DNA from: Methylobacter sp. S3L5C
Lineage (GTDB): Bacteria > Pseudomonadota > Gammaproteobacteria > Methylococcales > Methylomonadaceae
Assembly (NCBI RefSeq): GCF_022788635.1
Contig: NZ_CP076024.1
Span: 4,007,503-4,071,502, forward strand
Length of the DNA stretch: 64,000 nucleotides
Reading direction: 5' to 3'
Under the pieces are notes generated by a model that saw nothing but the letters and a program-made list of their open reading frames with translations, had not been told where the DNA came from and made no database searches. The translations under genes and the position numbers were made by a program. This document shows positions 37,728 through 55,755 of this stretch, piece after piece (position 1 is the stretch's first letter; every line of letters starts with the position of its first letter).

Positions 37728-37944
37728 TTTAAACTCCAATAAAATATTTTTAGACACAGGTTTGGCATCCGTAACAAGTTACTTAGTTACCAATATTGAC
37801 GCATATTTAACCTTTGGATGGTTTTGAGATTATTCACCACCCGCTTCAAATAATTCTAAAGATAGCCCAACCAAAGCTTTACCCCCCTGCGTCAGAATAG
37901 TTGTCGCCTCAAATTTTAAGAAAAAATAAAATTTGAGATTCAAA

Positions 37945-38445
37945 ATGAAAAAATATAAAAGGTATTCAGTAGGCTTCAGAGAGCAGGCCCTGGTAAAAGT
38001 ATACAATCGTGGTAATGACCAATCAGTTCAGTCCGTCGCAAACGAATTGAATATCCATTTAACAACCTTGAAGGCTTGGATGAAACAGAAGGAACAGAAC
38101 GTCAAACCTGCACCCCGGAAATCAAAGCGTCCCGAGGATTGGAGTTCTGAAGAACGTTTTACCGCTTTACAAAAAACCTATAATTTGATCGGTGAAGACT
38201 TAAATGCCTGGTGTCGTGAACGCGGCGTTTTTATTCATCAACTGGAGCAGTGGAAAACAGATTTTTGTAGCCAGGGTGACTCAGTAGGCAAACGTGAAGA
38301 AGCGCGGATTTTACGTACATTGAAAGAAGAAAACCAAACTCTTGAGCGCGAATTATTACGTAAAGACAAGGCCTTGGCAGAGGCCGCAGCGCTGTTGGTG
38401 CTGCAAAAAAAGTTCCGTGCGCTCTTGGGGGGAGAGGTCGAATGA
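37945..38445 (+). CDS. IS3-family OrfA, copy 2
   Basis: The 166-residue OrfA starts MKKYKRYSVGFREQALVK and keeps the HTH NELNIHLTTLKAWMKQ and the C-terminal coiled coil. It differs from copies 1 and 3 at about 20 positions, for example ENQTLERELLRKDK in place of EVQSLERNLLRKDK. Its stop overlaps the orfB start. Confidence 0.88.
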   Translation: MKKYKRYSVGFREQALVKVYNRGNDQSVQSVANELNIHLTTLKAWMKQKEQNVKPAPRKSKRPEDWSSEERFTALQKTYNLIGEDLNAWCRERGVFIHQLEQWKTDFCSQGDSVGKREEARILRTLKEENQTLERELLRKDKALAEAAALLVLQKKFRALLGGEVE

Positions 38446-39470
38446 CTCCCCACGAAGAGCGCAAGCAAGTGATTGTTTTACTGAATGAATCGGTAACAGC
38501 GGGGGCTCGCAAAGCTAAAGCCTGTGAGGTGCTGGGCCTGAGCGAACGGACCTTGCAACGCTGGCAGACCGGTGAGACGATTCACTGCGATCAACGCCCT
38601 TTGCGTGACTATCAACCGCCACACAAACTAACAGCAATCGAGCGCACCGAGGTGCTGACACTCGCCAATTCAGATGAATTTGGTCATCTGCCACCGAGTC
38701 AGATCGTGCCACGACTGGCCGACCAAGGCAGCTATCTGGCGTCTGAGTCGACCTTCTATCGCATCCTGCGCGAGGAAAAACAGCTTACCCATCGGCGTAG
38801 CGAACGGCCAGTTCAAATACGCACCAAGCCGCGCGCGGTCTGTGCTACAGCACCTAATCAACTGTACAGTTGGGACATTACTTATCTGCCATCACTGATC
38901 CGTGGACAGTTTTTCTATCTGTATCTATTTGTTGATATTTTCAGCCGAAAGATCGTCGGTTGGCAGGTATATGAAGAAGAAAACAGCGCCTTGGCTGGCG
39001 AATTGTTACGTGATCTTTGTCATCGTGAAGGTATACAGGCAGAACAGCTTATCCTGCATTCTGACAACGGCAGCCCAATGAAGGGATCGACTATGCTGGC
39101 GACCTTGCAACAGCTTGGTGTCATGCCTTCGTTTAGTCGGCCATCGGTTAGCAACGATAATCCGTACTCAGAATCGCTGTTTAAGACCTTGAAATATCGT
39201 CCTAACTATCCGCTAAAGCCGTTCGCCGATGTTACGGAAGCGCGTCAGTGGGTCACAAGCTTAGTGGAATGGTACAACCATGAGCATCGTCACAGCGCTA
39301 TCCGCTTTGTTACACCAGCACAACGTCATGAAGGCTTGGACGACAAGCTTCTGGATAACCGTAAAGCCGTCTACAAAGCAGCACGTGCTAAACATCCGCA
39401 ACGCTGGACTGGAAGCTCCCGTAATTGGGGAAAAATCCAGACAGTCCACCTTAACCCAGACAAGGCCTAA
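38442..39470 (+). CDS. IS3-family transposase OrfB, copy 2
   Basis: The 342-residue protein keeps the catalytic segments LYSWDITYLP, LILHSDNGSPM and NPYSESLFKTLK. It begins MTPHEERKQVIVLLNESV, with scattered substitutions relative to copies 1 and 3. No lesion is visible. Confidence 0.9.
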   Translation: MTPHEERKQVIVLLNESVTAGARKAKACEVLGLSERTLQRWQTGETIHCDQRPLRDYQPPHKLTAIERTEVLTLANSDEFGHLPPSQIVPRLADQGSYLASESTFYRILREEKQLTHRRSERPVQIRTKPRAVCATAPNQLYSWDITYLPSLIRGQFFYLYLFVDIFSRKIVGWQVYEEENSALAGELLRDLCHREGIQAEQLILHSDNGSPMKGSTMLATLQQLGVMPSFSRPSVSNDNPYSESLFKTLKYRPNYPLKPFADVTEARQWVTSLVEWYNHEHRHSAIRFVTPAQRHEGLDDKLLDNRKAVYKAARAKHPQRWTGSSRNWGKIQTVHLNPDKA

Positions 39471-40819
39471 ACAAAAAAATGCTATCAAGGAAGTGATTAT
39501 TCAGAAAACAAACCAGAGTAAGATTTAACCGTCGATGCGACAACTACATTGACAATTACCGTTTACCAATCCATTCTCGAGCGATGTTGTTGGATGGCCC
39601 CATACTGATACCTGCTCGGGCATCGCGGAAGATGCGTTCAAGCTGGCCTTTTTTGTAACCATAACCGCCGCTGACATCCATGGCATTGCGTGCCGAGATG
39701 TTAGCAACTTCTGAGGCATGGACTTTGAATTCAGTTAACGACAGCAGGATTTGCCCTTGTGGTTCACCATTGGCTTGCAATTGGTCTAATTGTCTGGCTA
39801 AATCGTGCTGCCAAGGGCGCAGGCTCTCCACTAATATTTTGGACTCACCCAATTGTTGTCGCAGTACTTGATAATCAGACAGTTTTCGGTTGAAATCGCG
39901 ATGGATCGTACCCGTTAGATGATCAACAGCTTTTTCTAATGCTGCTCTGGCTACGCCATGCCAAACAGCCCCCAAACCGACTAAATATACCGGTGAAACG
40001 CCGTGGTAAACAATATCTTTACCCTGCCCTTCTTCACCTAGGCGATCAATACTTTTGATGTGCACATTTTTGTAAGTAATTGGACCGCTGTGGTTACCAC
40101 GAACGCCAAGTGCATCCCAAACGCCATGGCTAATACCATCCAGCTTGGAATCGACGATGAAAAAACTAATATCGGTAGCGCTTTTAGCGCCAGGTGAGCG
40201 CGTTTGAAAAATATAGTAATCTGCTTGTCCTGCACTGGTAGTAAATGATTTTTCGGCATTGAGCAGATAGTTATTGTCATTATCACGGGCAGCCTCACTA
40301 AAATTAAACCACCAGTGTCCGCCTGATGCTTTTTCGCTGGTAGAATAGGTGCCGATTAAACCGTCCCGCGCGGGTTTCAACCAACGTTCTTTTTGATCGT
40401 GATTACCAAATAAGTTGATGGTCTGAGCAGCGCCAGTGTGCATCACATAAACCAGTCCGGTAGAAGCGCAGACACGACCGATCTCTTCAGCAACGATTGA
40501 AAAGGCAACGTAATCCAGGCCTAGACCGCCGTATTCTTTAGAAACAAGCACCCCATTCCAACCAGCCAGAGCAAGGGCTTCAAGGTTTTCTCTAGGAAAA
40601 ATACCTTGGTCAGTTTGTTCAGCATTAAGTCGAATGACTTCGTCAACCAACGTACGGATTTCAGAACGGATTTTTTCGTAATCATGTATAGGCATAATTT
40701 ATTCCTTAAACAGTTTTAGGAAATTGCGTTACGCACCGCCATAATTTTGTTCTGCAGCATACAATCCCGTATCGCAATGTATTTACGGTCATAATTCAAC
40801 ATATTTTTATGTTGTGGCA

Positions 40820-41911
40820 TTAAGCAGTCGCAGTTACTTTTTGTTGTGATTCAAGCTCTCGTACGAGTGGCAGAACGTTCTTGCCAAAGTAACTGACCTC
40901 TTCCTGAAAATGCAAAAAGCCTGATAGAATCAGATCGACTCCAACCGCCTTAAATTCAACAATACGTTCAGCAATCTGTTGAGGTGTTCCAATCAAGTTG
41001 GTTTTAAAACCATCGTTATATTGCACTAAATCTTCAAATGTTGATTTGGCCCAATTTCCCTCAAGCTCAGAAGTCGATGCCCCTGCTTGTTTTGCTGCGT
41101 GCCCAAAAGCATTGACCGCTTCATGGTTGGCTTTAGCTATAATTTCAGCCAATACTGCTTTGGCTTCCTCTTCAGTATCACGAGCAATAATAAAAGCATT
41201 CACACCTATCTTTATCTTATGGTTATTAGCAGTCGCCTTTTCCCGAATATCATCAACCTGTGCCTTAATACCCTCCACAGTATTGCCATTAGTAAAATAC
41301 CAATCAGAAACTTGAGATGCCATATCCCTGGCAGCACGAGAACTCCCGCCTTGAAATACTTCGGGATGAGGTTGCTGTAATGGCTTTGGTTTTAATGAGT
41401 AATCATGGAGTCGATAAAAATCACCTTGGTAAGTAAAGCTATCGGTTGTCCAGATACCTTTCAAAACCTCAATGAATTCTTGAGAGCGGCGATAACGCTC
41501 ATCATGCTCCAACCATGGTTGCCCAATGGCTAAAAATTCACCTTTGAACCAACCAGAAACAATATTTACCGCAATACGACCTTCAGTAAGATTATCAATG
41601 GTTGATAATTGCTTGGCAGCCAAGACCGGGTCCCACGGGCCAGGTAAAATAGCGGCAATGACTTTAATTTTAGTGGTTGCAGCAAGCAGGGCATGTGAAA
41701 AAGCCACTGACTCATGTTGGAATTCAGCACCATAACCAGCAGTAAATCTGATCTGGGTCAGCGCATATTCAAAACCACTTTTTTCTGCAATTTGTGCCAG
41801 CTTACGATTGTAATCAATATCCCAACTTGTTCTCTGTTCGATATCACTGACGACTAAACCACCGCTAACATTAGGTACCCAATAGGCAAATTTAAGTTGT
41901 TCTACACTCAT
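40820..41911 (-). CDS. sfnG: Dimethylsulfone monooxygenase SfnG (FMNH2-dependent)
   Basis: SfnG oxidises dimethylsulfone to methanesulfinate and formaldehyde with FMNH2 and O2. The 363-residue protein is a luciferase-like (LLM) TIM barrel: [92 protein letters not shown] and LIGTPQQIAERIVEFKAVGV. The NVSGGLV start and AYWVPNV strand are those of SfnG and not of SsuD. It lies 30 bases after msuE, whose product supplies FMNH2, and before the sfnC-like gene. All key segments are intact. Confidence 0.92.
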   Translation of the reverse strand: MSVEQLKFAYWVPNVSGGLVVSDIEQRTSWDIDYNRKLAQIAEKSGFEYALTQIRFTAGYGAEFQHESVAFSHALLAATTKIKVIAAILPGPWDPVLAAKQLSTIDNLTEGRIAVNIVSGWFKGEFLAIGQPWLEHDERYRRSQEFIEVLKGIWTTDSFTYQGDFYRLHDYSLKPKPLQQPHPEVFQGGSSRAARDMASQVSDWYFTNGNTVEGIKAQVDDIREKATANNHKIKIGVNAFIIARDTEEEAKAVLAEIIAKANHEAVNAFGHAAKQAGASTSELEGNWAKSTFEDLVQYNDGFKTNLIGTPQQIAERIVEFKAVGVDLILSGFLHFQEEVSYFGKNVLPLVRELESQQKVTATA

Positions 41912-41941: not shown

Positions 41942-42538
41942 TTAGGCTTTTGCTAAATCTTGATGATTAATTACCGGGGACGCTTGTTCGGGTACCAAAT
42001 TACGATGCTTAAGATGCGGCAATGCTTTTTCTACCGCCAAATCAAGTCGTGCTTCTAGTGCTTTGCTGGCTACTTGGTAATTAACAAACTCGGCCTCAGT
42101 AGCATAAACACCAATTGGCAGTGTTAATGCCTGGAAGAAACCAAATAAAGGCCGAAGTTGATGTTCGATAATCAGGGCATGTCGGTCACTACCGCCGGTT
42201 GCGCTGAGTATCACCGGAACATCAATGAGTGCTTCATGATGAACCAAGTCAAATAGATGTTTAAACAAACCCGTGTAAGAGCCTCGATAAACTGGCGTTC
42301 CAACTATCAGCAAGTCTGCCGTTTCAATGGCCTCTATATCCTTTTTAATAGGCTCAGGTAAAGCATCACGAGTTCCTGCCGCGCCAAGCAAGCTACTTAT
42401 TTGGCCTAATTCAATCAAATGAAGTTCGATAGGGATTTGTTTATCGAGGCGTTTAATTATTTCTTCAATAATGGTGAGCGTTCTTGACGGCTGACCAGCT
42501 CCACCGGACACAGCAGTTATTTTTAGTTTATGACTCAT
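41942..42538 (-). CDS. msuE: NAD(P)H-dependent FMN reductase MsuE
   Basis: MsuE reduces FMN to supply the two-component monooxygenases SfnG and MsuD/SsuD. The 198-residue flavodoxin-like protein has the N-terminal phosphate loop VSGGAGQPSRTLTIIEEI and the flavin-binding segment DLLIVGTPVYRGSYTGLFKH, with ILSATGGSDRHALIIEHQLR after it. It is the first gene of msuE-sfnG-sfnC and has a sigma-54-type promoter about 80 bases upstream. Confidence 0.9.
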   Translation of the reverse strand: MSHKLKITAVSGGAGQPSRTLTIIEEIIKRLDKQIPIELHLIELGQISSLLGAAGTRDALPEPIKKDIEAIETADLLIVGTPVYRGSYTGLFKHLFDLVHHEALIDVPVILSATGGSDRHALIIEHQLRPLFGFFQALTLPIGVYATEAEFVNYQVASKALEARLDLAVEKALPHLKHRNLVPEQASPVINHQDLAKA

Positions 42539-42617: not shown

Positions 42618-42633
42618 AGCAGAAACTGTGCCA
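42618..42633 (-). promoter_or_regulatory. Sigma-54 promoter of msuE-sfnG-sfnC
   Basis: The minus strand reads TGGCACAGTTTCTGCT: GG at -24 and GC at -12 with correct spacing. It matches the promoters at 51089-51104 and 51342-51357 base for base at the key positions. Confidence 0.8.
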
Positions 42634-42718
42634 TGTATAATTATCGATAATTATCAATAAGTTAATGTAATTCAAGCGAAGGGGATTTGTTGATTATCAT
42701 GCCTGTTTGCTGATGCCT

Positions 42719-42734
42719 TGCTGCTATGGCAGCA
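42719..42734. promoter_or_regulatory. Candidate SfnR binding palindrome (msuE upstream site 1)
   Basis: TGCTGCTATGGCAGCA is a near-perfect palindrome about 85-100 bases upstream of the msuE sigma-54 promoter, a usual enhancer distance. It matches the consensus TGCTGYTATRRCAGCA at all 16 positions. Confidence 0.65.
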
Positions 42735-42799
42735 TTTTTCATAAACTATCAGCTCACCTACATTCAGTCTGTTTTTTTTGGACATCTATATTTGTATGC

Positions 42800-42815
42800 T
42801 GCTGCTCTATAAGCA
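42800..42815. promoter_or_regulatory. Candidate SfnR binding site (msuE upstream site 2, weaker)
   Basis: TGCTGCTCTATAAGCA matches the consensus at 13 of 16 positions and lies about 170-180 bases upstream of the msuE promoter. The left arm is perfect, the right arm partial. Confidence 0.4.
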
Positions 42816-42913
42816 ACCCATCAGCATAAAATTAGAACTTCAGCAATTAACCTTAATTGAAAAATATAAAAATACTTAATAATCAATGGGTTAATTATTG
42901 GCATATTAAGTGC

Positions 42914-42951
42914 TTGACAGATAGTAAGCGTTTATTTGATATACAAACGCT
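42914..42951 (+). promoter_or_regulatory. Sigma-70-type promoter of sfnB with an overlapping operator-like repeat
   Basis: TTGACA (42914-42919) and TGATAT (42937-42942) are 17 bases apart. An inverted repeat AGCGTTT (42927-42933) / AAACGCT (42945-42951) straddles the -10 element, a position suited to a repressor or other regulator. The sfnB ATG is 40 bases further on. Confidence 0.5.
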
Positions 42952-42990
42952 GGCTTTTTTAATTAGCAATTACTTTCACACGGAGCATTT

Positions 42991-44226
42991 ATGCCATCAT
43001 CACCAAGAATCCTTGCCGAAGCTGCTCTGGAAATCATTCCCAGACCAAGCGCGCATATCATTAAATCAGATGCAGAGGCGATTGAAGTGGCTAAAAAAAT
43101 AGCCATAGAAATTGCCAAAGGAGCAGCCACTCGTGACAAAGAACGAATCTTGCCCCGTAAAGAACTTGACCTTTTTTCCCAAAGTGGCTTATGGGGTATA
43201 ACCATACCTAAAGAATATGGTGGTGCATTTGTTTCAAATAAAACCTTGGCTGAGGTAATCACTATCGTTTCCGAAGCAGATCCATGTGTCGGACAAATAC
43301 CACAAAATCATCTCTACATGATAGAAGCCATTCGTCTTGATGGTACCGAGTTTCAAAAGAAGTATTTTTTTGACTTGGCCCTCAAAGGCTTAAGATTCGG
43401 CAATGCTTTTTCTGAGATTGGAACAAAACAAGTTACGGATATAAATACCCGTCTCACGCCTACTAAAGACGGCTATTTACTTTCCGGTAAAAAATTCTAT
43501 TCTTCGGGTGCGCTACTTGCTGATTGGGTTCCTGTCGTCGCAAAAGATGAAAACGACAACACCGTGGTTGCTTTCGTAAAAAAAGGATCAGATGGTCTGA
43601 CTATTATCGACGACTGGTCAAGTTTTGGTCAGCGCACTACCGCCAGTGGAACCACTATCCTGGAAAATATTTTCATCCCCACAGCCTATGTACTACCCCA
43701 CTATCTTGCTTTTGAAAACCCAACTACCATGGGCCCCATCGCACAAATTATTCAAGCAGCCGTCGATACCGGTATTGCTCGCGCCGCATTGAAGGACACA
43801 CTGTATTTTGTACGCAACCATACTCGTCCCTGGATAGATACAAGTTTAGAACATGGCTATGAAGACCCGTTGACACTAAAGGATATTGGTAATATTCAAA
43901 TTCAGGTACATGCAACCGAAGCGTTATTAAGTCGAGCCGGTGAATTAATTGATCATGCCCAACTGAAGTCCAATGAGGATACAGTCGCAGCGGCATCCAT
44001 TGCTGTAGCAGAGGCAAAAATATTTAGTACGGAAACGGCTTTGCTGGCAGGTAGTAAATTATTCGAATTAGCGGGTACCCGTTCAACATTAGGAGAATAT
44101 AATCTTGATCGTCATTGGCGCAATGCACGAACTCATACACTGCATGATCCAGTGCGCTGGAAATACTATGCGGTAGGTAATTATGTATTAAACGGCATTA
44201 ATCCGCCTCGTCATCCCTGGTTTTGA
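42991..44226 (+). CDS. sfnB: SfnB-family sulfur acquisition oxidoreductase
   Basis: SfnB proteins are acyl-CoA dehydrogenase-fold flavoproteins found in sulfur-starvation clusters. Their exact substrate is not established. The 411-residue product has ITIPKEYGGAFVSNKTLAEV, VGQIPQNHLYMIEAIRL, GNAFSEIGTKQV, GKKFYSSGALLADWVPV, IIDDWSSFGQRTTASGT and FELAGTRSTLGEYNLDRHWR, then ARTHTLHDPVRWKYYAVGNY. The His-Asp pair near the end is typical of the DszC/SfnB branch. It is transcribed away from msuE, ends at a bidirectional terminator, and is the one sfn gene without an obvious sigma-54 promoter. Confidence 0.9.
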   Translation: MPSSPRILAEAALEIIPRPSAHIIKSDAEAIEVAKKIAIEIAKGAATRDKERILPRKELDLFSQSGLWGITIPKEYGGAFVSNKTLAEVITIVSEADPCVGQIPQNHLYMIEAIRLDGTEFQKKYFFDLALKGLRFGNAFSEIGTKQVTDINTRLTPTKDGYLLSGKKFYSSGALLADWVPVVAKDENDNTVVAFVKKGSDGLTIIDDWSSFGQRTTASGTTILENIFIPTAYVLPHYLAFENPTTMGPIAQIIQAAVDTGIARAALKDTLYFVRNHTRPWIDTSLEHGYEDPLTLKDIGNIQIQVHATEALLSRAGELIDHAQLKSNEDTVAAASIAVAEAKIFSTETALLAGSKLFELAGTRSTLGEYNLDRHWRNARTHTLHDPVRWKYYAVGNYVLNGINPPRHPWF

Positions 44227-44335
44227 ATTATAGATTTTCAGGTAAATAATTTAAATACCTACAGATACTATCCTTTTATAGGTTGGTATCTGTATAAATT
44301 TAAAATAACGTGCAATAGAAATTTAACATCACTCT

Positions 44336-44364
44336 AAAAAGCCCATATTATTTATGGGCTTTTT
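44336..44364. terminator. Bidirectional terminator between sfnB and ribB
   Basis: A 12-bp stem AAAAAGCCCATA / TATGGGCTTTTT with a 5-base loop gives T-runs on both strands. It lies between the convergent sfnB and ribB stop codons and can serve both. Confidence 0.9.
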
Positions 44365-44614
44365 AGTCTTGAAGATTAGATGCGCACTTCTTCAATGGTA
44401 CATCTAGCGTTAGATAGCCCCCCTCTATAATTCACATATTCAGAATGTTCCAGAAGATTTTGTTTACGGTACGCGATCAAATCTTCAATAGTAATAATCT
44501 TAAGATCGTGTTGTTTTGCAAAGGCAAACAAATCCGGTCGACGAGCCATGCTGCCGTCATCATTCACAATTTCACAAAGCACTCCTACTGAATTTAAACC
44601 TGCCAGGCTAGTTA

Positions 44615-46518
44615 GTGTTTGAACGGTAATAAATTATTTAATACAAAACAATAAGTTGCGATAAAATAGGCTATTGAAAATCAAATAACAGCCTATTGGC
44701 GTATAAAATGCTGAATTTAAGTAACTTGCTGATAATTATGATTATTATTTTCATCGAAAAGGGCTTGGCAAAAGCTACCTCCCGGATAAGCGCCTCAGCT
44801 TTCAAATTCTCGTTGGAAAACTCCCGATGAGAAAGGTATTTTCTCCACAAATGAGCATCGGTCAACGCGATATTGCTGATATCAAAATAGATGTTTCCTC
44901 CCGTGATGACATTCCGATCATCTTGCTGGGCTTGCAACACATTTATACGACTCAGCCATTAAGGGATGCTGTTTTTAAAATACTGGAGGATGTGGTGCCT
45001 ACTAAAATTGACGCCGAAGTGACAAAAATCGTTGCCATCGACAAAGGCCGCCCCGGTATGAATCAATGGTCGATTTTGGTGTTAGGATCGCTACGCGTAG
45101 GACTGAATACAGACTATGATCGCATTCTGGAGTTGGCCAATCAGCATAACACCCTACGTGAAATGCTCGGTCTTGGTTGCTTTGATGCCGACAAACGCTA
45201 TCGCCTGCAAACCTTGAAAGACAATCTCAAGCTGTTTACGCCAGCGATCATGGCGCGTATTAGTACTGAAGTTATTCGAGCCGGCTATCAATTACTGGAT
45301 CTGGATATTCATGCGCTGATCAGAGGCCGTTGCGATTCTTTTGTGTTAAAAACCAACGTGCATTTTCCAACCGATATCAGTTTACTGCATGATGCGATCC
45401 GGATTCTGATTCGGACGTGCGTCAAATGGAGCTTGCAACATGCCTTGCCTGAATGGCGATTGCATAAGCACAACCTGTCTAAATTTAAAAGGCGGTATCG
45501 CACGCTGCAAAAACTCAAACATTCCACGTCAAAAAATGACGCTATCAAGGCCGCCAAAGCACTTGAGATCAAACAGGCCTACCAGGACTATATTGATTTG
45601 GCAGGGTTTTATCTTGAGCGCACTAAAGCCAGTATGTTGACGTTAAAAAATCACTTTCACATACCAGAAGTGTTGCTTACCGATCTGAGCACTTTTAGCC
45701 TGCATGCCGAACGTCAAATCGAGCAGATTAGACGTCGCGCTATTCAAGGAGAAACCATTCCCCATGATGAAAAAGTCTTTTCCCTGTTCCAGACCCACAC
45801 CGAATGGATCAGCAAAGGCAAAGCCGGAGTCCCGGTTGAACTGGGCTTGCGGGTCTGTATCATGGAAGACCATCAGGGCTTTATATTGCACAGTCAAGTC
45901 ATGCAAAAGACTACCGACGACAAAGTCGCCGTGCCGATGGTTAAAGCGACTCAAGTAAAATTCCCAAGTTTTAACGCCTGTAGCTTTGACAAAGGTTTCC
46001 ACAGTCCGGCCAATCAAACCGACCTGAAAGCCCTCCTTGAGCAAGTCGTTTTACCCAAAAAAGGCAAGCTATCCAAAGCCGACCAGAATCGTGAATACAC
46101 CGCGGAATTTAAACAGGCAAAAAAGCAACATTCCGCCGTAGAATCGGCTATTAATGCGTTAGAAGTACATGGGCTGGATAAGTGCCTTGATCATGGCATT
46201 GAAGCCTTCGAGCGTTATGTTGGCTTAGCCGTGTTATCGCGTAACATTCAAAAGCTCGGCACAATTAAACGCGACATGGAACGGCTAAGGCTTGTTAACG
46301 AGCAACAAAAACTAGCTGCCTGACGCTTTTTTGAGAACAGCCAACAGGTTATCCACAGGAAAGGTGCGCTTATAATTTGTGATTATTAGAAATAATTCTG
46401 AAAAACTGATGGTAAATCAGAAAATAAGTCGTTTGTTCCACTCCGGAAAGATTTTTCCAAAAAATATTTCCGGATGTTGAGCTGGTTTTTTTGAAAAGTG
46501 GCTTTTTCGTTCAGGCAC
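44615..46518 (+). mobile_element. ISNCY-type insertion sequence in ribB (1904 bp)
   Basis: The ends GTGTTTGAACG and CGTTCAGGCAC are imperfect inverted repeats, flanked by TAGTTA on both sides. It lies opposite to ribB. A 200-base piece of a related element persists at 56496-56696. Confidence 0.85.
44827..46323 (+). CDS. ISNCY-type transposase
   Basis: The 498-residue protein is uninterrupted. It has a HTH-like start (LREMLGLGCFDADKRYRLQT) and a C-terminal catalytic region (SFDKGFHSPANQTDLKALL, KKQHSAVESAINALEVHGLD, LAVLSRNIQKLG). I assign the family from overall likeness to unclassified (ISNCY, ISDol1-like) transposases. Catalytic residues are not certain. Confidence 0.75.
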   Translation: MRKVFSPQMSIGQRDIADIKIDVSSRDDIPIILLGLQHIYTTQPLRDAVFKILEDVVPTKIDAEVTKIVAIDKGRPGMNQWSILVLGSLRVGLNTDYDRILELANQHNTLREMLGLGCFDADKRYRLQTLKDNLKLFTPAIMARISTEVIRAGYQLLDLDIHALIRGRCDSFVLKTNVHFPTDISLLHDAIRILIRTCVKWSLQHALPEWRLHKHNLSKFKRRYRTLQKLKHSTSKNDAIKAAKALEIKQAYQDYIDLAGFYLERTKASMLTLKNHFHIPEVLLTDLSTFSLHAERQIEQIRRRAIQGETIPHDEKVFSLFQTHTEWISKGKAGVPVELGLRVCIMEDHQGFILHSQVMQKTTDDKVAVPMVKATQVKFPSFNACSFDKGFHSPANQTDLKALLEQVVLPKKGKLSKADQNREYTAEFKQAKKQHSAVESAINALEVHGLDKCLDHGIEAFERYVGLAVLSRNIQKLGTIKRDMERLRLVNEQQKLAA

Positions 46519-47777
46519 TAGTTAAATCATAAGCCGCTTCAGTATGTCCCGGTCTATCCAAAACACCACCTTGCCGCGCTTTTAAAGGAAAGATGTGTCC
46601 TGGTCTTAAAAAATCTACTGGTTGTGTTGAAATATCTGCCAAGGCCCGTAACGTCGATGCTCGATCATGTGCAGAGATTCCCGTTGATGTTCCATATCGA
46701 TAATCAACGCTAACCGTGAATGCTGTTCTATGCGACTCGGTATTATTATTTACCATCAACGGCAATTGAAGTTGCGCTAGTCTCTCGGCCCCCAGTGCAA
46801 CACAGATAACGCCACTACTATGCCTGACAAGAAAGGCCATTTGACTACTGGTAATTTTTTCGGCAGCAATAATCAAATCACCTTCGTTTTCTCTGTTAGT
46901 ATCATCGACAACTACCACAAACTGACCATTGGCAATCGCTTGAATGGCATCGCTAACACTATCAAACGTCTCTAAGTTTCCTCCCATTTCCTAAGCCTTA
47001 ATATTTAAAAGTTGTTCGGCATTCTGATAAAAAACTTTATCGAGAACAGTATCTTTGAAGCCAAGTGCAGCAAAATCGTCAATCGTTTGTTTCAAATCAC
47101 GAAACGGGTAAGAAGACCCAAACAGAAGTTGCTCACCTAAACAAGAATTTGCCGCTTCAACATAAAGCGTTGAACCCGGTTGAAAAATATACATATCCGG
47201 GACAAGATAAATATTGGCATAGCGAAATGCAGCGCCAATAATTTCATTCACAAAAGGGTAATAGCCATGAAAACAAATAATTTTAAGTAATGGATATTTT
47301 CTAGCCAGCCTGGCTACTGCATTTGGGTGCGCATAATCAAAATCGGGTGTTGTCGGGCCACTCATCAAGCAAACAGGAACACCTAGATGAATGCACGCTT
47401 CATACACAGGAAACAGTGATGGATCATCAACATACAAAGCCGGTTCAGCAAATCCTGGTTCTATATTAATGGCCTTAAATCCTAACTGCTTGACCGATCT
47501 TTCGATTTCATCGAGCGCACTTTGTTCACCTCTGGTTTGTATATCCACAGAGCCAAGCCCAATCAGTTTTTGGCTTTGCGCAATTAATTTGGCAATCTCA
47601 TCATTACCTATCGTCAGACTTGGCGTTTCTCTCCCTACGATTACCGCCTTATCTACACCGGCATGATCAATTTCAGCAAGATAGCCTTCTAACGTAGAAG
47701 ATCGCCTGAAATGTTCGATGTCTTTTGATCCCACTCGTTGATTAAGCCATTTAGCCGTTTCATAACCTGGAGTATTA

Positions 47778-48598
47778 GGTTCTGTTGACGTTTCACCAAT
47801 CCGGTAGAATAAGTCGTTTTGAATGAAATGAAGCGGATAACATTAAGTGATGAAGAGTGGACTCGTATTTTGGCAAGCTTAAAAAAATTGCCTGGAGTTC
47901 ATATCGGTTTACCCGATATTTGCAGGCAGTTTGTTAATGCCATTTTGTGGATATTACGTACGGGAGCACAGTGGCGTGTATTACCGTCAACGTATGGTAA
48001 ATGGAATAGCATCTTCAAGCGTTTTTCACGTTGGTGTATCAATGGCATATGGGGTGAAATTCTCTGTCATCTTGCTGAAGACGCTGATTTACAAGATGTT
48101 TCCATGGATGGTTCAGTTATTAGAGCACATGCCTGCGCAGCTGGAGCGGCATATAGTTCTGCTGAGAATGAAGCACTTGGGCGCTCCAAAGGTGGATTTG
48201 GTTGTAAGATTCACGCGCTTTGTGATGGCTTGGGCATGCCCATCAAATTTATCCTGACAGGCGGGCAGGAGGCTGAATGCAAGCAAGCCATATCTTTATT
48301 GGAAAATGTTAATGCTTCAGCCGTTTTAGCAGACAAAGCCTACGACACGAACGAGTTGCGGGAGTGGTTAGCCAGTCGTGAAATAAAAGCGGTTATCCCA
48401 CCTAAATCGAACCGAAAAGAAGATATTGAGTGCGATTATTGGCATTATAAGGAGCGGCATGCCATTGAATGTATGTTCGGTAAGCTCAAGCACTATCGCA
48501 GAATTGCTACACGATATGAGAAAAAAGCTATTAATTACATGGGGATGCTATCATTTTCCTCGGTGCTTTTATGGCTGAGGTGAAACGTCAACAGAACC
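47778..48598 (+). mobile_element. IS5-family insertion sequence, copy 2 (821 bp)
   Basis: Same length and terminal repeats (GGTTCTGTTGACGTTTCACC) as the copy at 22491-23311, here on the plus strand with TA duplications at 47776 and 48599. It splits the amidohydrolase gene near its 5' end. Confidence 0.93.
47819..48583 (+). CDS. IS5-family transposase, copy 2
   Basis: The 254-residue protein is identical to that of copy 1, with the same DDE segments. Identity points to recent movement of this element within the genome. Confidence 0.93.
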   Translation: MNEMKRITLSDEEWTRILASLKKLPGVHIGLPDICRQFVNAILWILRTGAQWRVLPSTYGKWNSIFKRFSRWCINGIWGEILCHLAEDADLQDVSMDGSVIRAHACAAGAAYSSAENEALGRSKGGFGCKIHALCDGLGMPIKFILTGGQEAECKQAISLLENVNASAVLADKAYDTNELREWLASREIKAVIPPKSNRKEDIECDYWHYKERHAIECMFGKLKHYRRIATRYEKKAINYMGMLSFSSVLLWLR

Positions 48599-48694
48599 TA
48601 GGGGTAGCTCCAAAAAAATCGTGCAAATAAGCAGGACGATTTCTCATATCAATAATTTTTTGCATAATTTTTTATCTATTTTTTATCTATTTTT

Positions 48695-49897
48695 TTATGA
48701 GTAAAAACTGTGAGAAGGATAATTTCCGTTTAGTGCCCAATCACCCAATTCATTTAATTTATAATCCAAAGGATCATGTAATGTATAAACGCGCAAATTT
48801 CGCCAAAATCTATCCAGCTTGAGCGTAAAGGTTGTGGATCTGGCGCCAGCGACTTCAAATATGCGCGATGTCACATCCAAACCCGTCTTGGTGATATTTA
48901 CTTTTGCTGCAAAAATGGCAAGTGCAACTTCACCTCGCTCTTCTGCAGTCAGGCTTAAGCCTTTTTCCCAGGCATTATCTAAAAGTCTGGCCGCATGATC
49001 TGCCAACACCCTTGATGCTTCGAGACTGGCCCAAAACTCACCATAATGTAAAAGGGTATAAGGATCTTCCTGAATGTTTTTGGCTAGTGACCCTGACCAG
49101 ACACGTGAATTTTTTTGAGTATATTTCACCGCTTCAGACAATGCACCTTCAGTAATTCCAAGATAAATGTTGGTAAAAATTAATTGAGCTATTAAAGATC
49201 GTAGACTTGAAAATGGAGAACTAAGCGGTCCCGGGTTAATTAATAACTCATGCTCTTCTACCCTAAGCGCTGTAAATTCAACGCTACCACTATCTGTCTG
49301 GCGTTGCCCCATATTATTCCAGTCATTATTGAGATGAATACCAGAACGTTGTGTCGGAATAGCTGCCACAATAAATTTTTTAGTGCCCTCTTCAATCGCA
49401 GAAATAATCAGGCGATCCGAATCCGTTGCACCCGAACAAAAACTCTTTTGACCATTAAAGAATAAATGATTATCTTGATGTGTTGCGATAGTCCTGGTGT
49501 CCAAAGGATTGAGTGCATTACCCCACCATAAATTTTTTTCTGCAGTTTCTTTAAATAATTTTTGCCACTGGTCTGTTGTTCCATACAATCGAATGGACGC
49601 TAGCATAAGAAATTGAAAGGCGAACACTTGAGCTAAGGAGCTATCAGTTTTAGCGATAGTTCTAACCGTTTTATAAATAGTTGACCAATTAGCGCCCAAT
49701 CCTCCGAACTCTTCTGGAATTGAAAGCTTAAGCAATCCACTTTCCCGAATTGCCTGCCTTTGTTCTAATGGTGTTCCCCCTTCAGCATCCCGTTCCGCAG
49801 CGGTTTCATAAAAATACTGACTTAGTTCTTCTGCTACTTCATGAATTTGCCCAACAAATCTTGGACTTGATGGTTCATCCAGGTTAACTGCTTTCAT
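48695..49897 (-). CDS. DszC-like acyl-CoA dehydrogenase-fold monooxygenase
   Basis: The 400-residue protein belongs to the flavin-dependent DszC/SfnB branch of the acyl-CoA dehydrogenase fold, which oxygenates sulfur compounds. Motifs: LKLSIPEEFGGLGANWSTIY, GNALNPLDTRTIA, NGQKSFCSGATDSDRLIISA, LNNDWNNMGQRQTDSGSVEF and EVAGARSTTFTLKLDRFWRN, then RVYTLHDPLDYKLNELGDWA. I chose the start at 49897 because it lies 10 bases after the ssuD stop; a much longer open frame upstream overlaps ssuD and is not protein-like. It closely resembles the IS-split gene at 51482-54385, so the cluster carries two paralogues. Substrate unknown. Confidence 0.87.
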   Translation of the reverse strand: MKAVNLDEPSSPRFVGQIHEVAEELSQYFYETAAERDAEGGTPLEQRQAIRESGLLKLSIPEEFGGLGANWSTIYKTVRTIAKTDSSLAQVFAFQFLMLASIRLYGTTDQWQKLFKETAEKNLWWGNALNPLDTRTIATHQDNHLFFNGQKSFCSGATDSDRLIISAIEEGTKKFIVAAIPTQRSGIHLNNDWNNMGQRQTDSGSVEFTALRVEEHELLINPGPLSSPFSSLRSLIAQLIFTNIYLGITEGALSEAVKYTQKNSRVWSGSLAKNIQEDPYTLLHYGEFWASLEASRVLADHAARLLDNAWEKGLSLTAEERGEVALAIFAAKVNITKTGLDVTSRIFEVAGARSTTFTLKLDRFWRNLRVYTLHDPLDYKLNELGDWALNGNYPSHSFYS

Positions 49898-49907
49898 TAT
49901 TTTAACC

Positions 49908-51050
49908 TTATGCTGATACTGGTTCTTGAGATTTACCAAGAGCTTCACCGAATGGTCCAGTGAGATTAATTTTAATCCCTGCTTCATGGCTTGGGGTAAG
50001 ATCAATCGGTAACAATGGAAATAAAAGCTCTGCGACCCGATATGATTCTTCCAAATGTGGATAGCCCGAGAAAATAAAGTAATCAATACCCAAGTCAGCA
50101 TATTCCTTAATTCGGCTAGTAACTTCTGTTGGATTGCCAACCAAAGCAGTACCGGCACCGCCCCTAACCAAGCCAACACCAGCCCATAAATTGGGAGCAA
50201 CAACGAGATTATCCCGACTGCCTTTATGTAACTCAGTCATTTTTTTTTGTCCTACCGAATCAAAGTTGGCAACTGCTGATTGTGCGGCAGTAATAGTTTC
50301 ATCGGTCACATAGGACAACAACTCATCAGCGGCTTTCCATGCCTCACTACTGGTTTCTCTTACAATAACATGCAGACGAATTCCAAATTTTAACGTTCTG
50401 CCTAATTTGGCTGCCTTATCACGCACTCTGTTTATTTTTTCCGCTACTGCCGCAAGTGGCTCTCCCCATGTTAAAAACACATCAATATGTTCAGCACTAA
50501 GGTCTATAGCGGCATCCGATGAACCACCTATGAATAATGGGGGGTATGGCTTCTGAATTGAGCCGGAAGGAAGGCTTGCCCCTTTAACCTTAATATAATC
50601 GCCATCAAAATTCGTTGTTTCACCTGATAGTACAGCTTTCCAGATTGTTAAAAATTCACTCGCTTCCAAATAGCGTTCGTCATGCTCTAGAAAACTACCA
50701 TCCGCTTGTTGCTCAACAGGATCGCCACCGGCAACAACATTAATCAATAGTCTACCCCCGGAAATACGATCCAAGGTTGAAGCCATTCGTGCCGATACGG
50801 TCGGCGAAGTGAATCCTGGGCGGACTGCAACTAAAAACTTGAGGTTTTTAGTTCTATTAATCAAGGATGAAGCAATCACCCAAGGATCTTCACATGCGCG
50901 TCCCGATGGTACTAATACCCCTTCAAAACCCAAGTTATCAGCGGCTTGTGCAATTTGTTTTAGATAAGAATAAGTGACTGGTCTGGCACCATGTTCGGCA
51001 CCTAGGTAACGGTTATCCCCATGCGTGGGAAGGAACCAGAATATTTTCAT
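49908..51050 (-). CDS. ssuD: FMNH2-dependent alkanesulfonate monooxygenase (SsuD/MsuD type)
   Basis: SsuD cleaves alkanesulfonates to sulfite and an aldehyde; acting on methanesulfonate (MsuD) it gives formaldehyde. The 380-residue LLM-fold protein begins [17 protein letters not shown] and has [75 protein letters not shown] and [20 protein letters not shown]. The ATG at 51050 is preceded by AAAGGAAAA; an upstream ATG would add 23 poor residues. It leads an operon with the dszC-like gene, the amidohydrolase and ribB. A sigma-54 promoter lies about 40 bases upstream. SsuD and MsuD cannot be told apart by eye. Confidence 0.92.
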
Positions 51051-51088
51051 GTTAATTTTCCTTTTAGAAAGAACTCTATTGAATTTAT

Positions 51089-51104
51089 AGCGATTATCGT
51101 GCCA
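51089..51104 (-). promoter_or_regulatory. Sigma-54 promoter of the ssuD operon
   Basis: The minus strand reads TGGCACGATAATCGCT, with GG at -24 and GC at -12 in the spacing seen at the msuE promoter. The binding palindromes at 51156 and 51187 lie upstream of it. Confidence 0.75.
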
Positions 51105-51155
51105 TAAAAATTTCAACATAAATTCATTAAGTTAGCATTCATGCGTTACTGTTCC

Positions 51156-51171
51156 TGCTGCTACAGAAGCA
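51156..51171. promoter_or_regulatory. Candidate SfnR binding site (ssuD/dszC2 region, site 1)
   Basis: TGCTGCTACAGAAGCA matches the consensus TGCTGYTATRRCAGCA at 14 of 16 positions. It lies 52 bases upstream of the ssuD promoter and about 170 upstream of the divergent one. Confidence 0.55.
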
Positions 51172-51186
51172 GCTCAGCACTATCTA

Positions 51187-51202
51187 TGCTGTTATAGCAG
51201 CA
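51187..51202. promoter_or_regulatory. Candidate SfnR binding site (ssuD/dszC2 region, site 2)
   Basis: TGCTGTTATAGCAGCA matches the consensus at all 16 positions. It lies 83 bases from the ssuD promoter and 140 from the divergent one, good enhancer distances for both. Confidence 0.65.
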
Positions 51203-51309
51203 GAATATTCGGAAAAAATTCAAATTTTATATTTACCGGTCTTGAAATAAGCATCTCAGTGCGTTTTGCTATCAACGCAAGTTATTGATGCTGCTTATTA
51301 ATCAATAAA

Positions 51310-51325
51310 TGCTGCTGGAACAGCA
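51310..51325. promoter_or_regulatory. Candidate SfnR binding site (ssuD/dszC2 region, site 3)
   Basis: TGCTGCTGGAACAGCA matches the consensus at 14 of 16 positions. It lies only 16 bases before the plus-strand sigma-54 promoter but about 205 from the ssuD one, so it may mainly serve ssuD or repress its near neighbour. Confidence 0.5.
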
Positions 51326-51341
51326 TCTTAAGCTCTGTAAT

Positions 51342-51357
51342 TGGCACGTTATCTGCT
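51342..51357 (+). promoter_or_regulatory. Sigma-54 promoter of the dszC2-sfnR unit
   Basis: TGGCACGTTATCTGCT has GG at -24 and GC at -12, spaced as in the other two. It is about 125 bases before the ATG of the split dszC-like gene, so it would also drive the regulator gene that follows. Confidence 0.8.
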
Positions 51358-51933
51358 GTTAATTCTAGAAATAAACTATTAATAGTTTAATTTTTCTCTA
51401 TTTTAATAGGTCATATTCTTTGGACTTGTATCTCATTAGAGCAGTTTTTAATTGAATTAGAGCGTTATTGATATAAAAAATATGGTGTTAACTTTGAATA
51501 AAAATGTATTTACGACCAACGAAAAATTTTTAAATGAAAATGTGGAAAGCCCATTAGAGATTGCCCGAAGATTATCTAAACAATTTGCTCAAACTGCGGC
51601 TGAAAGAGATTATCTTGGTGGGACTCCAAAATTGGAAAAAGACCAAATCCGTGAAAGTGGCTTGCTTTCTTTAATCATTCCCAAGGAATATGGAGGGCTG
51701 GGAGCCAATTGGTCAGAAGCTATGCTGGTAATCAGAGAAATTGCAAAAGCAGATAGCTCGCTTGCCCATTTATTTGGATTTCAACATTTGATGTTAGCGA
51801 CAGTTTATCTTTTTTCAAAACCGGAACAATGGAAGCCTTGGTTTGAGCAAACAGCTCAGCTCAACTGGTTTCCCCCTGCGTCAGAATAGTTGTCGCCTCA
51901 ACTTTTAAGAAAAAATAAAATTTGAGAGTAGAA

Positions 51934-52434
51934 ATGAAAAAATATAAAAGGTATTCAGTAGGCTTCAGAGAGCAGGCCCTGGTAAAAGTATACAATCGTA
52001 GTAATGACCAATCAGTTCAGTCCGTCGCAAACGAATTGAATATCCATTTAACAACCTTGAAGGCTTGGATGAAACAGAAGGAACAGGACGTCAAACTTGC
52101 ACCGCTAAAATCAAAGCGTCCCGAAGATTGGAGCTCTGAAGAACGCTTTACTGCTTTACAAAAAACCTATAATTTGATCGGTGAAGACTTAAATGCCTGG
52201 TGTCGTGAACGCGGCGTTTTTATTCATCAGTTGGAACAATGGAAAGCTGATTTCTGCCGCCAGGATGACTTAGTAGACAAGCGTGAAGAAGCGCGGGTCC
52301 TGCGTATATTGAAAGAAGAAGTCCAAAGCCTTGAGCGCAATTTATTGCGTAAAGACAAAGCCTTAGCAGAAGCCGCAGCGCTGTTGGTACTGCAAAAAAA
52401 GTTCCGGGCGCTCTTGGGGGGAGAGGTCGAATGA
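51934..52434 (+). CDS. IS3-family OrfA, copy 3
   Basis: The 166-residue OrfA is identical to that of copy 1 (HTH NELNIHLTTLKAWMKQ, C-terminal coiled coil). Its TGA overlaps the orfB ATG. Confidence 0.88.
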   Translation: MKKYKRYSVGFREQALVKVYNRSNDQSVQSVANELNIHLTTLKAWMKQKEQDVKLAPLKSKRPEDWSSEERFTALQKTYNLIGEDLNAWCRERGVFIHQLEQWKADFCRQDDLVDKREEARVLRILKEEVQSLERNLLRKDKALAEAAALLVLQKKFRALLGGEVE

Positions 52435-53459
52435 CTGGCCACGAAGAGCGCGAACAAGTGATTGCTTTACTTAATGAATCAGTAACTGCGGGAGCACGTC
52501 AAGCTAAAGCCTGTGAAGTATTAGGACTTAGTGAGCGTACCTTACAACGCTGGCAGACAGGTGAGACGATTCACTGCGATCAACGCCCCTTGCGTGACTA
52601 TCAACCGCCACACAAACTAACAGCAATCGAGCGTGCCGAGGTGCTGATCGTCGCTAATTCAGATGAATTTGGTCATCTGCCACCGAGTCAGATCGTGCCA
52701 CGACTGGCCGACCAAGGTAGCTATCTGGCGTCTGAGTCGACCTTCTATCGCATCCTGCGCGAGGAAAAACAGCTTACCCATCGGCGTAGCGAACGTCCGG
52801 CTCAAACACGAACAAAGCCACGCGCGGCATGTGCTACAGCACCTAATCAACTGTACAGTTGGGACATTACTTATCTGCCATCACTGATCCGTGGACAGTT
52901 TTTCTATCTGTATCTATTTGTTGATATTTTCAGCCGAAAGATCGTCGGTTGGCAGGTGTATGAAGAAGAAAACAGCGCCTTGGCTGGCGAATTGTTACGT
53001 GATCTCTGTCATCGTGAAGGGATACAGGCAGAACAGCTTATCCTGCATTCTGACAACGGCAGTCCGATGAAGGGATCGACTATGCTGGCGACCTTGCAAC
53101 AACTGGGTGTCATGCCTTCGTTTAGTCGGCCATCGGTTAGCAACGATAATCCGTACTCAGAATCGTTGTTTAAGACCTTGAAATATCGTCCTAACTATCC
53201 GCTAAAGCCGTTCGCCGATGTTACGGAAGCGCGTCAGTGGGTCACAAGCTTAGTGGAATGGTACAACCATGAGCATCGTCACAGCGCTATTCGGTTTATT
53301 ACTCCAGCGCAACGCCATGAAGGCTTGGACGACAAGCTTCTGGATAACCGTAAAGTCGTCTACGAAGCAGCACGTGCTAAACATCCGCAACGCTGGACTG
53401 GAAGTTCCCGTAATTGGGAAAAAATCCAGACAGCCCACCTTAACCCAGACAAGGTCTAA
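52431..53459 (+). CDS. IS3-family transposase OrfB, copy 3
   Basis: The 342-residue DDE integrase is identical to copy 1, with LYSWDITYLP, LILHSDNGSPM and NPYSESLFKTLK. No lesion is visible. Confidence 0.92.
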   Translation: MTGHEEREQVIALLNESVTAGARQAKACEVLGLSERTLQRWQTGETIHCDQRPLRDYQPPHKLTAIERAEVLIVANSDEFGHLPPSQIVPRLADQGSYLASESTFYRILREEKQLTHRRSERPAQTRTKPRAACATAPNQLYSWDITYLPSLIRGQFFYLYLFVDIFSRKIVGWQVYEEENSALAGELLRDLCHREGIQAEQLILHSDNGSPMKGSTMLATLQQLGVMPSFSRPSVSNDNPYSESLFKTLKYRPNYPLKPFADVTEARQWVTSLVEWYNHEHRHSAIRFITPAQRHEGLDDKLLDNRKVVYEAARAKHPQRWTGSSRNWEKIQTAHLNPDKV

Positions 53460-54381
53460 ACAAAAAAATGCTACCAAGGAAGTGATTATTTAGAAAACAA
53501 ACCAGAGTAAGATTTAACCGTCGAGGCGACAACTACATTGACAATTACCGGTTTTGGGGTAATGCTGTTAATCCGTTAGATGAAAGATTAATCGCAAAGG
53601 TATTTCCTAATTGGTATGAGTTTTCTGGTAAAAAAAGCTTTTGTTCCGGGGCGATAGATTCTGAAATGCTAATCATTTCCGCGAAGGAAAAAGTGAACGG
53701 CAACCTCTTAATTGCTGCGATTCCAACAGGTAGAAGTGGTGTCACACTAATCAATGACTGGGATAATATAGGCCAACGTCAGACAGATAGCGGCAGTGTG
53801 ATTTTTGAAAAAGTTCGTGTTGAAGAACATGAAATCTTAAAAGATCCCGGTCCTTTGTCAACACCATTTTCATGCCTGCGACCATTAGTCGCTCAACTGA
53901 TATTAACGAATATTTATTTAGGCATCGCTGAGGGTGCTTTTGAAGATGCCAAACAATATAGCCTTCATGAAGCAAGACCATGGCATACCTCAAATATGGC
54001 AGCAGTTAATCATGATCCCTATATTCTTAAACATTATGGAGATTTCTGGGTTGGGATTGAAAGCACTAAAGCATTAACTGATCTTGCTGCCATAAAATTG
54101 GATAATGCTTGGAAAAAAAATGCCCAGCTTTCTGATGATGAGCGTGGCGAAGTAGCAATCCGAATTAACTCAGCAAAAATTTTAGCGACAAGAACAGGAC
54201 TAGACATTACCAGTAAAATGTTCGAAGTCATGGGGTCACGAGCTACACATGCCGGATTAAGGTTGGATCGTCACTGGCGAAACCTTAGAACACATACCCT
54301 GCATGATCCATTAGATTACAAAGTTAAGGAACTTGGCGAGTGGGCACTAAACAATATTTATCCTAAACCAACATTTTACTC

Positions 54382-55515
54382 ATGAATATTATGAACAATT
54401 ATTCTATTGATAGAACGTCCAAAAAAGCATTTGAGCTTCATAATATAGACGAGAAAAATCAACAAACCAATTTATTGGTCTTACCGAATGCACAAGAGCT
54501 GAGCAAGTCAATTAGAGCCACTGCACAGGTATTTGAGGATCCAAAATCTATTGCGCTACTTGCTCGGATAAAATTGATCGCGCCTAGTGATGCAAATGTC
54601 TTAATTATAGGTGAAACGGGCACTGGTAAGGAATTGATAGCACGCCACGTTCATGGTTTAAGTAATCGAAGAGATAAACCATTTGTTGCTGTTAATTGCG
54701 GGGCATTTTCAGACACACTGGTGGAAAGTGAGTTATTTGGTCACGAAAAGGGAGCTTTCACTGGAGCATTTTCTGCTAAAGCCGGCTGGTTTGAAGCAGC
54801 AAATTCCGGCACACTTTTTCTTGATGAAATTGGCGACTTGCCACTCAGTATTCAAGTAAAACTGCTACGTGTTCTCCAAGAACGGGAAATAGTGAGGCTT
54901 GGTTCAACAACCCCGACGACTATTGACGTCAGACTGGTAGCGGCGACTAATGTAAAATTGGAAGAAGCCGTTCGAGCCGGACATTTTCGAGAAGATTTAT
55001 ATTATCGGTTAAGAGTTGCCCACATTGAACTACCAACATTACGAAATCGTCCAGGAGACATCCTTCCATTAGCTAAATATTTCATCTCTGAATATACGCG
55101 TCGACTGAAATATGGTGATATTAAGTTAGATGAACAAGCCAAGAAAAAAATATTACGGCACCCTTGGCCAGGCAACATAAGAGAACTTGAGAATGTCATC
55201 CATCATGCTCTGCTACTTTGCAAGAATAATATTGTTACTAGTGAAGATCTCCTGCTTTCTTGTATTCAGCTTCACAATCGAGGTGAAAATAGCACGAATT
55301 ATGGTCTTGAGCAAAATAAACTAAATGATGCACTACATCAATTATTTGAATCCAATACAGAAAATATTTATGACCATCTTGAAGATACAATCGTGAGAAC
55401 TGCTTATAACTATTGCCATAATAACGCGGTTCAAACGGCTAAATTATTAGGTATTAGCCGAAATATAGTGAGGGCAAGGTTGATTAAAATGGGGGCTATT
55501 AATGCCATCAGATAA
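54382..55515 (+). CDS. sfnR: Sigma-54-dependent activator, SfnR type
   Basis: SfnR-type proteins activate sulfone and sulfonate genes with sigma-54 RNA polymerase. The 377-residue protein lacks an N-terminal sensor domain, as SfnR does. The AAA+ domain has Walker [17 protein letters not shown] (about residues 76-91), the sigma-54 contact loop GAFTGA (124-129), Walker [12 protein letters not shown] and the arginine-finger region [17 protein letters not shown]. The C-terminal Fis-type HTH is [21 protein letters not shown]. Its start overlaps the stop of the split dszC-like gene, and sigma-54 promoters with matching palindromes lie upstream of three units here. Without a sensor domain, its level is probably controlled by transcription. 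Confidence 0.88.
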
Positions 55516-55755
55516 AAATGCATTAAATTGATTGATCACTAAATCATCGTGTATACGGTAGCAGTATCGAATTAAATTCGTCACAGTTTAGGCATTCAGA
55601 ATAGATGATTTTTGAAGATGCCAAACTCAATACCTTTAACAGCGTGCTGACAGTCTATGTTGGCAACCAACATTTTAAAAAAACTACTTGCTCTAGTGGC
55701 AAAGATAACTCAATACGCTTTAAGGAAACTTTCAATATTTAATAACAATATAACC
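55516..55755. other. Spacer between sfnR and ribA
   Basis: A 45-codon frame at 55605-55742 (MIFEDAKLNTFNSVLTVYVG) has no ribosome site and no recognisable motif. I looked for an FMN riboswitch before ribA and saw none of its conserved segments. Confidence 0.35.

Follow-up and report, generated by a model that had tools for sequence, protein, structure and literature searches.

We analysed a 64,000-nucleotide stretch of the genome of Methylobacter sp. S3L5C (contig NZ_CP076024.1, positions 4,007,503 to 4,071,502 of the forward strand; hereafter the window), which carries a cluster of organosulfur genes together with sfnR, a gene for a sigma-54-dependent activator. The two control regions of this cluster contain palindromes of the form TGCTG-N6-CAGCA, a candidate operator for SfnR. 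The target genes sfnG, msuE, sfnB and ssuD all exceed their curated NCBIfam cut-offs (Table 1). In SfnR the AAA+ Sigma54_activat domain begins at residue 53 and Pfam found no sensor or receiver domain, in agreement with an earlier note, made from the sequence alone, that had called this activator sensorless. No curated SfnR model was among the 25 of 28 NCBIfam matches listed. The host genome encodes RpoN and the alpha subunit of integration host factor (IHF) along with a PF02461 monooxygenase subunit, and the host is probably a methanotroph of the window's family.

The earlier note had reported a shared 16-bp palindrome in both control regions, and its positions held: the 16-mer is exact at 42719 and 51187, and at 42800, 51156 and 51310 it differs in 3, 2 and 2 letters (13, 14 and 14 of 16 matching). 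The predicted site is better written as TGCTG-N6-CAGCA and occurs in arrays. With at most one mismatch, this pattern gave 11 matches in the window versus 1.8 expected, a number reached by 0 of 100 shuffles; the words TGCTG and CAGCA themselves occur at 3.5 per kb. Five of the 11 matches, including all three exact ones, lie in the two control regions. The same note had placed three sigma-54 promoters here. All three are where it put them and a fourth box, before sfnB, had been missed; both control regions carry a divergent pair. We rejected the boxes as stand-alone evidence: in the window they are close to chance (4 matches versus 1.8 expected; 4 reached by 12 of 100 shuffles), and among the 162 boxes examined across the genome just two have a palindrome in place.

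A genome-wide scan, which the earlier note had proposed, found the full arrangement of box and palindrome only in this cluster, within the boxes examined. To that extent the proposal withstood the refutation named in the note, a palindrome widespread in the genome apart from sigma-54 promoters. The exact 16-mer has two copies in the 4.8-Mb genome, both inside the window, and TGCTG-N6-CAGCA has 17, with a sigma-54 box no more than 400 bp downstream for 3 of the 3 in the window and 0 of the 14 elsewhere. The box set comprised 162 distinct TGGCAYN6TGC boxes examined of 170 counted (for TGGCAT, 100 of 106 places were listed). Those with a palindrome of at most two arm mismatches at 92-106 bp were the boxes of msuE and sfnB, and no further regulon member of this kind was found outside the window among these 162. 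The ssuD box ends in CGC, outside this set, and has its own palindrome at 98 bp. Elsewhere in the genome, three boxes had a one-mismatch palindrome at 67, 156 or 168 bp.

The palindrome also stands out among relatives. A scan with sfnG yielded 590 candidates, of which the best 80 were obtained as named loci, and we took the 400 bp upstream of sulfur genes from these loci, from the window and from G080 and G108, the two genomes with the closest SfnR relatives among 151 genomes of the host's order. Dropping near-duplicates reduced the regions from 36 to 25 outside Pseudomonas and from 89 to 77 in Pseudomonas; the dereplicated promoters are still related to one another. When all inverted repeats with 5-bp arms and spacers of 0-20 were ranked, the top repeat was TGCTG-N6-CAGCA outside Pseudomonas (12 of 25 regions) and TGTTG-N6-CAACA in Pseudomonas (40 of 77), against 0.02 and 0.07 regions, respectively, expected under a first-order Markov model. 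Each is scarce in the other set, with the TGTTG site in 1 of 25 non-Pseudomonas regions and the TGCTG site in 3 of 77 Pseudomonas regions. The same arms with spacer 17 ranked second and fourth, respectively, because a third half-site sits 11 bp past the second arm of the first palindrome in the consensus; in the window this half-site is present at msuE (42708) and sfnB (42822). G080 and G108 have the same palindromes beside their boxes. As a negative control we used 27 loci at which more distantly related paralogous activators of the order are encoded; these had TGCTG-N6-CAGCA at 0 of 27 and TGTTG-N6-CAACA at 2 of 27; in ten longer paralogue stretches there was one TGCTG-N6-CAGCA (L068), distant from any box. 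No shared motif with 5-bp arms and spacer 6 emerged for these paralogues, the commonest such repeat occurring in 4 of the 27 loci.

The distance between palindrome and box is narrowly distributed. If one arm mismatch is allowed, 13 of 14 non-Pseudomonas boxes and 24 of 41 Pseudomonas boxes are preceded by a palindrome whose start lies 97-103 bp away, with a peak at 101 bp; exact arms at this distance were found for 7 of 14 and 15 of 41, respectively. The window's own distances are 101 bp for msuE, 99 bp for sfnB and 98 bp for ssuD. Of 71 dereplicated promoters, selected for carrying the first site, a further palindrome follows 30-34 bp downstream in 18 (19 sites), where background density implies about 0.15 sites. 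We also scored matches to the IHF consensus. Perfect matches number nine in the window, two of them in the enhancer-box intervals of msuE and sfnB (42652 and 42881). Allowing one mismatch, IHF-like sites lie between enhancer and box in 17 of 32 promoters with TGCTG sites (3.4 in shuffled sequence) and 22 of 37 with TGTTG sites (2.3 in shuffled sequence), and such a site starts 26-36 bp before the box in 29 of the 71 promoters.

The two half-sites go with two forms of the C-terminal helix-turn-helix (HTH). Next to TGCTG sites, the SfnR protein carries Q and K/R in the first HTH helix, with RN[IV][VIL]RA in the second (Q-type); next to TGTTG sites, it carries H and S/N/Q in the first helix, usually combined with RN[VI]TR in the second (H-type). 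In the window SfnR, the residues that distinguish the types lie at Q351, at K354 and around V363. Among 36 loci, 12 have box-linked TGCTG palindromes without TGTTG ones, and 11 of these 12 have a Q-type HTH (two also with mixed sites); TGTTG palindromes alone occur in six, all six with an H-type HTH. Two paralogues of one genome, Pseudomonas sp. 5P_3.1_Bac2, follow the same rule: within about 9 kb of the Q-type paralogue there are three boxes with TGCTG at 98-101 bp, and within about 5 kb of the H-type paralogue two boxes with TGTTG at 97-100 bp. Half-site type tracks the SfnR HTH with few exceptions. A later sample of Pseudomonas paralogues covered 30 loci among the matches listed. Its 16 Q-type loci (one being the query) had TGCTG in 10, a mixed site in one and none in five; for its 14 H-type loci no exact box-linked site was found; at L411 there was a mixed site, with one mismatch, at 95 bp, and at L415 a palindrome of TGTTG type without a box. 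The recognition-helix threonine as sole determinant was rejected, given a Comamonadaceae SfnR with RNIIRA, an H-type first helix and a TGTTG site (one site). In the tree the Q-type Pseudomonas paralogues fall outside the branch that unites the window's group with the Pseudomonas H-type group (89/85; root for drawing only), and because of this TGCTG may be the older code.

From the observed sequences, their spacing, their conservation and their co-variation with the HTH, we infer that the cluster forms an SfnR regulon by which sulfur would be scavenged from sulfones and sulfonates, with TGCTG-N6-CAGCA as its predicted site, and we put the probability of this at roughly 0.88. The proposal of an SfnR-type regulon in the earlier note is supported by the first rank of the repeat outside Pseudomonas, the near-fixed box distance, the HTH co-variation and the absence of the site from the loci of other paralogues. 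The candidate operator, TGYTG-N6-CARCA, is conserved before the predicted targets near 100 bp upstream of the boxes. We propose that SfnR dimers would bind the palindromes, which begin some 100 bp ahead of the -24 element, with a further one at about 68 bp in some promoters, roughly three helical turns from the first; that IHF would put a bend into the DNA separating enhancer from box and bring SfnR into contact with the sigma-54 polymerase; and that SfnR would in this way drive msuE-sfnG, sfnB, ssuD and its own operon, presumably under sulfate limitation. The near-fixed enhancer distance would then be a consequence of the IHF bend. Pseudomonas SfnR would use the same layout with TGTTG-N6-CAACA, accompanied in the first helix by H in place of Q and S/N/Q in place of K/R, and in the recognition helix usually by T in place of V/I/L. 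At somewhat better than even odds, there are two interchangeable codes, TGCTG and TGTTG, decided by a few HTH residues on one rigid enhancer-IHF-promoter scaffold, and some Pseudomonas keep both as parallel regulons insulated from each other, which would make the two sigma-54 activators a naturally occurring orthogonal pair.

Several observations weigh against this interpretation. In Pseudomonas, 17 of the 41 boxes have no palindrome at 97-103 bp and 37 of the 77 regions lack the exact TGTTG site. Of the 36 loci used for the half-site comparison, 17 had no box-linked palindrome and one had a mixed site only. Pseudomonas alcaligenes L237 combines an H-type SfnR with a TGCTG site lying 226 bp upstream of a box (its genome encodes a Q-type paralogue too), and L393, one of the ten Q-type loci with TGCTG, also carries a TGTTG site. 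Nine of those ten TGCTG sites lie at 125-128 bp and not at 100, these being largely one promoter repeated in related species. At L038 (2945-3013), a locus of a less related paralogue, TGTTG-N6-CAACA stands 68 bp before a sigma-54 box, which weighs against a clean separation. Within the window, the interval from the ssuD box to its palindromes showed no IHF-like match with at most one mismatch, and the sfnR operon, split by an insertion sequence, has palindromes at 155 and 32 bp and none near 100 bp.

We also weighed whether the palindromes could be explained without SfnR. That a different organosulfur regulator, for example a CysB/Cbl-like LysR protein, binds them, and that some other activator serves the sigma-54 boxes, seems improbable to us. 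CysB is said to control sfn operons in Pseudomonas putida as well, but the half-site follows the SfnR HTH with few exceptions, even for two paralogues in one genome; the near-fixed box distance and the pairs about 31 bp apart suit an enhancer-binding protein, and the site is missing from all 27 loci of other paralogues. It is still harder to credit, and was already disfavoured, that the palindromes are functionless and reflect chance or the mere common ancestry of a few intergenic regions. TGCTG and CAGCA are frequent words, the boxes alone are near chance and the dereplicated promoters remain related, but the repeat ranks first across several genera after dereplication and does so with constrained spacing and co-variation.

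A decaying regulon in this strain, with sfnR poorly expressed and the operon and its neighbours cut by insertion sequences, is a tentative possibility that we think less likely than an intact one, and it is compatible with an SfnR regulon. Between the promoter and sfnR lies an IS3-type element that recurs in identical form at a second place in the window, and a 93.6% copy at 37883-39564 has rve and HTH_Tnp_1 domains in Pfam. A second element adjoins an amidohydrolase gene that is short at its 5' end, and ribB is short. No sigma-70-like match was found in 51040-51490; such matches do exist upstream of sfnR, though at chance level (3 on both strands versus 2.4 expected). Against decay, sfnR is a full-length open frame and the promoter regions of msuE, sfnB and ssuD are intact. 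Because the insertion sequence separates the promoter from sfnR, the regulatory circuit may be impaired in this strain. The second element is of IS5 type, lies at 47775-48601 before the shortened amidohydrolase gene and has an identical copy at 22488-23314. Beside the shortened ribB is a 498-residue open reading frame (ORF) at 44827-46323, with no match found in Pfam, that is possibly a transposase.

In G080, Methylovorus and Methylobacillus rhizosphaerae (L061, L227, L228) a palindrome likewise lies 34-46 bp before the sfnR-operon box, and in G108 the 155-bp site is present. Such a close palindrome (32-46 bp) could be a brake, where the bound activator might block and not help. In Azotobacter a dszC/msuC-like gene stands just 5' of sfnR with a box near its 5' end and TGTTG sites at 100 and 126 bp, an arrangement that fits autoactivation of sfnR.

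The monooxygenase gene that the earlier note labelled dszC2 is DszC-like, but it is split by the insertion sequence and scores far below the DszC cut-off of 850 bits: its two pieces, scored apart, gave 106 and 230 bits, and the intact copy 3' of ssuD gave 354. Given the Pseudomonas gene order beside msuE, msuD and sfnR, both genes are probably MsuC-like. The ssuD start was set at 51050, the family profile starting at residue 25 of the longer ORF.

Window SfnR is 58-78% identical to SfnR-like activators from genomes with sfnG clusters, and in the tree it clusters with Methylophilaceae proteins. Its identity is 73-78% to the proteins of G080, G108 and four betaproteobacterial methylotrophs and at most 66% to other activators from the 151 genomes of the order, a pattern that hints at exchange of the cluster between methylotrophs. 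Riboflavin genes accompany the cluster: a ribA-like gene adjoins sfnR in G080, Methylobacillus, Methylovorus and Methylophilus. In G080 this gene is preceded by a separate sigma-54 box, itself preceded by palindromes at 98 and 68 bp, which suggests that the supply of flavin mononucleotide (FMN) belongs to the predicted regulon and hints at flavin supply genes among its members in some relatives.

Table 1. Features of the sfn/msu/ssu cluster and its control regions, in window coordinates unless another locus is named.
Feature	Position	Strand	Basis or remark
sfnG, dimethylsulfone monooxygenase	40820..41911	-	TIGR04021 above cut-off
msuE, FMN reductase	41942..42538	-	TIGR03566 above cut-off
Sigma-54 box TGGCACAGTTTCTGC of msuE-sfnG	42619..42633	-	pattern scan; palindrome begins 101 bp upstream
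Perfect IHF consensus match TATCAATAAGTTA, between enhancer and msuE box	42652..42664	+	
SfnR-type palindrome TGCTGCTATGGCAGCA	42719..42734	.	exact 16-mer; extra half-site at 42708
SfnR-type palindrome TGCTGCTCTATAAGCA, 1 arm mismatch	42800..42815	.	extra CAGCA half-sites at 42822 and 42841
Perfect IHF consensus match AATCAATGGGTTA, before sfnB box	42881..42893	+	
Fourth sigma-54 box TGGCATATTAAGTGC, of sfnB	42899..42913	+	palindromes 99 and 180 bp upstream
sfnB family oxidoreductase	42991..44226	+	TIGR04022 above cut-off
dszC/msuC-like monooxygenase, 3' of ssuD	48695..49897	-	NF043015 354 bits, cut-off 850; start judged from translation
ssuD/msuD, alkanesulfonate monooxygenase	49908..51050	-	PRK00719 and TIGR03565 above cut-off
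Sigma-54 box TGGCACGATAATCGC of ssuD	51090..51104	-	upstream palindromes at 98 bp and, with 1 mismatch, at 67 bp
Second palindrome TGCTGCTACAGAAGCA, 1 arm mismatch	51156..51171	.	31 bp from next palindrome
Palindrome TGCTGTTATAGCAGCA, common to two divergent promoters (98 bp from the ssuD box, 155 bp from the dszC/msuC-sfnR box)	51187..51202	.	
Palindrome TGCTGCTGGAACAGCA	51310..51325	.	32 bp upstream of dszC/msuC-sfnR box
Sigma-54 box TGGCACGTTATCTGC of dszC/msuC-sfnR operon	51342..51356	+	pattern scan
Second dszC/msuC-like gene, 5' part, broken by insertion sequence	51482..51889	+	NCBIfam
IS3-type insertion sequence between promoter and sfnR, 1.68 kb	51872..53550	+	identical copy 20018-21696
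Second dszC/msuC-like gene, 3' part	53666..54385	+	NCBIfam
sfnR, AAA+ sigma-54 activator, 377 aa	54382..55515	+	Pfam; Fis-like C-terminal HTH assigned by eye
Riboflavin-gene places noted	L061 8188-9710; window 46511-46987 and 55657-56364		

These data now allow an operator and a promoter geometry to be proposed for a widespread sulfur-starvation activator, with a regulon that would be predictable from sequence alone. Enhancer distance is often held to be flexible and appears tightly kept here, perhaps via IHF. If the half-site switch with matching HTH changes is true, specificity between sigma-54 activators could be probed by a few residue swaps. A literature search, with the primary SfnR papers outside its reach, found no SfnR site sequence, spacing or half-site switch described in the sources it covered, and the Pseudomonas SfnR site may already be published.

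Among known systems, the closest is Pseudomonas putida DS1, where the SfnR regulon reportedly comprises sfnFG, sfnECR and sfnA. The window resembles it in its sensorless SfnR-family activator, sigma-54 boxes and SfnG, SfnB and MsuE-type targets, and differs in its TGCTG half-sites, where we see TGTTG in Pseudomonas. In P. putida sfnECR is also reported to be CysB-activated and SfnR-repressed, whereas sfnR in the window follows a sigma-54 box with SfnR-type sites. Pseudomonas aeruginosa reportedly has two SfnR paralogues, SfnR1 and SfnR2, near msu genes; in strain PA7 we found one H-type and one Q-type HTH, and no box-linked palindrome in the 20-kb PA7 region examined. The NtrC-type glnA enhancer consists of two palindromes with the sigma-54 promoter roughly 100 bp downstream. 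The arrangement described here is like it in having a palindrome pair about three helical turns apart and roughly 100 bp from a sigma-54 promoter, and unlike it in its half-sites, in the lack of a receiver domain and in the IHF-like sites between enhancer and box.

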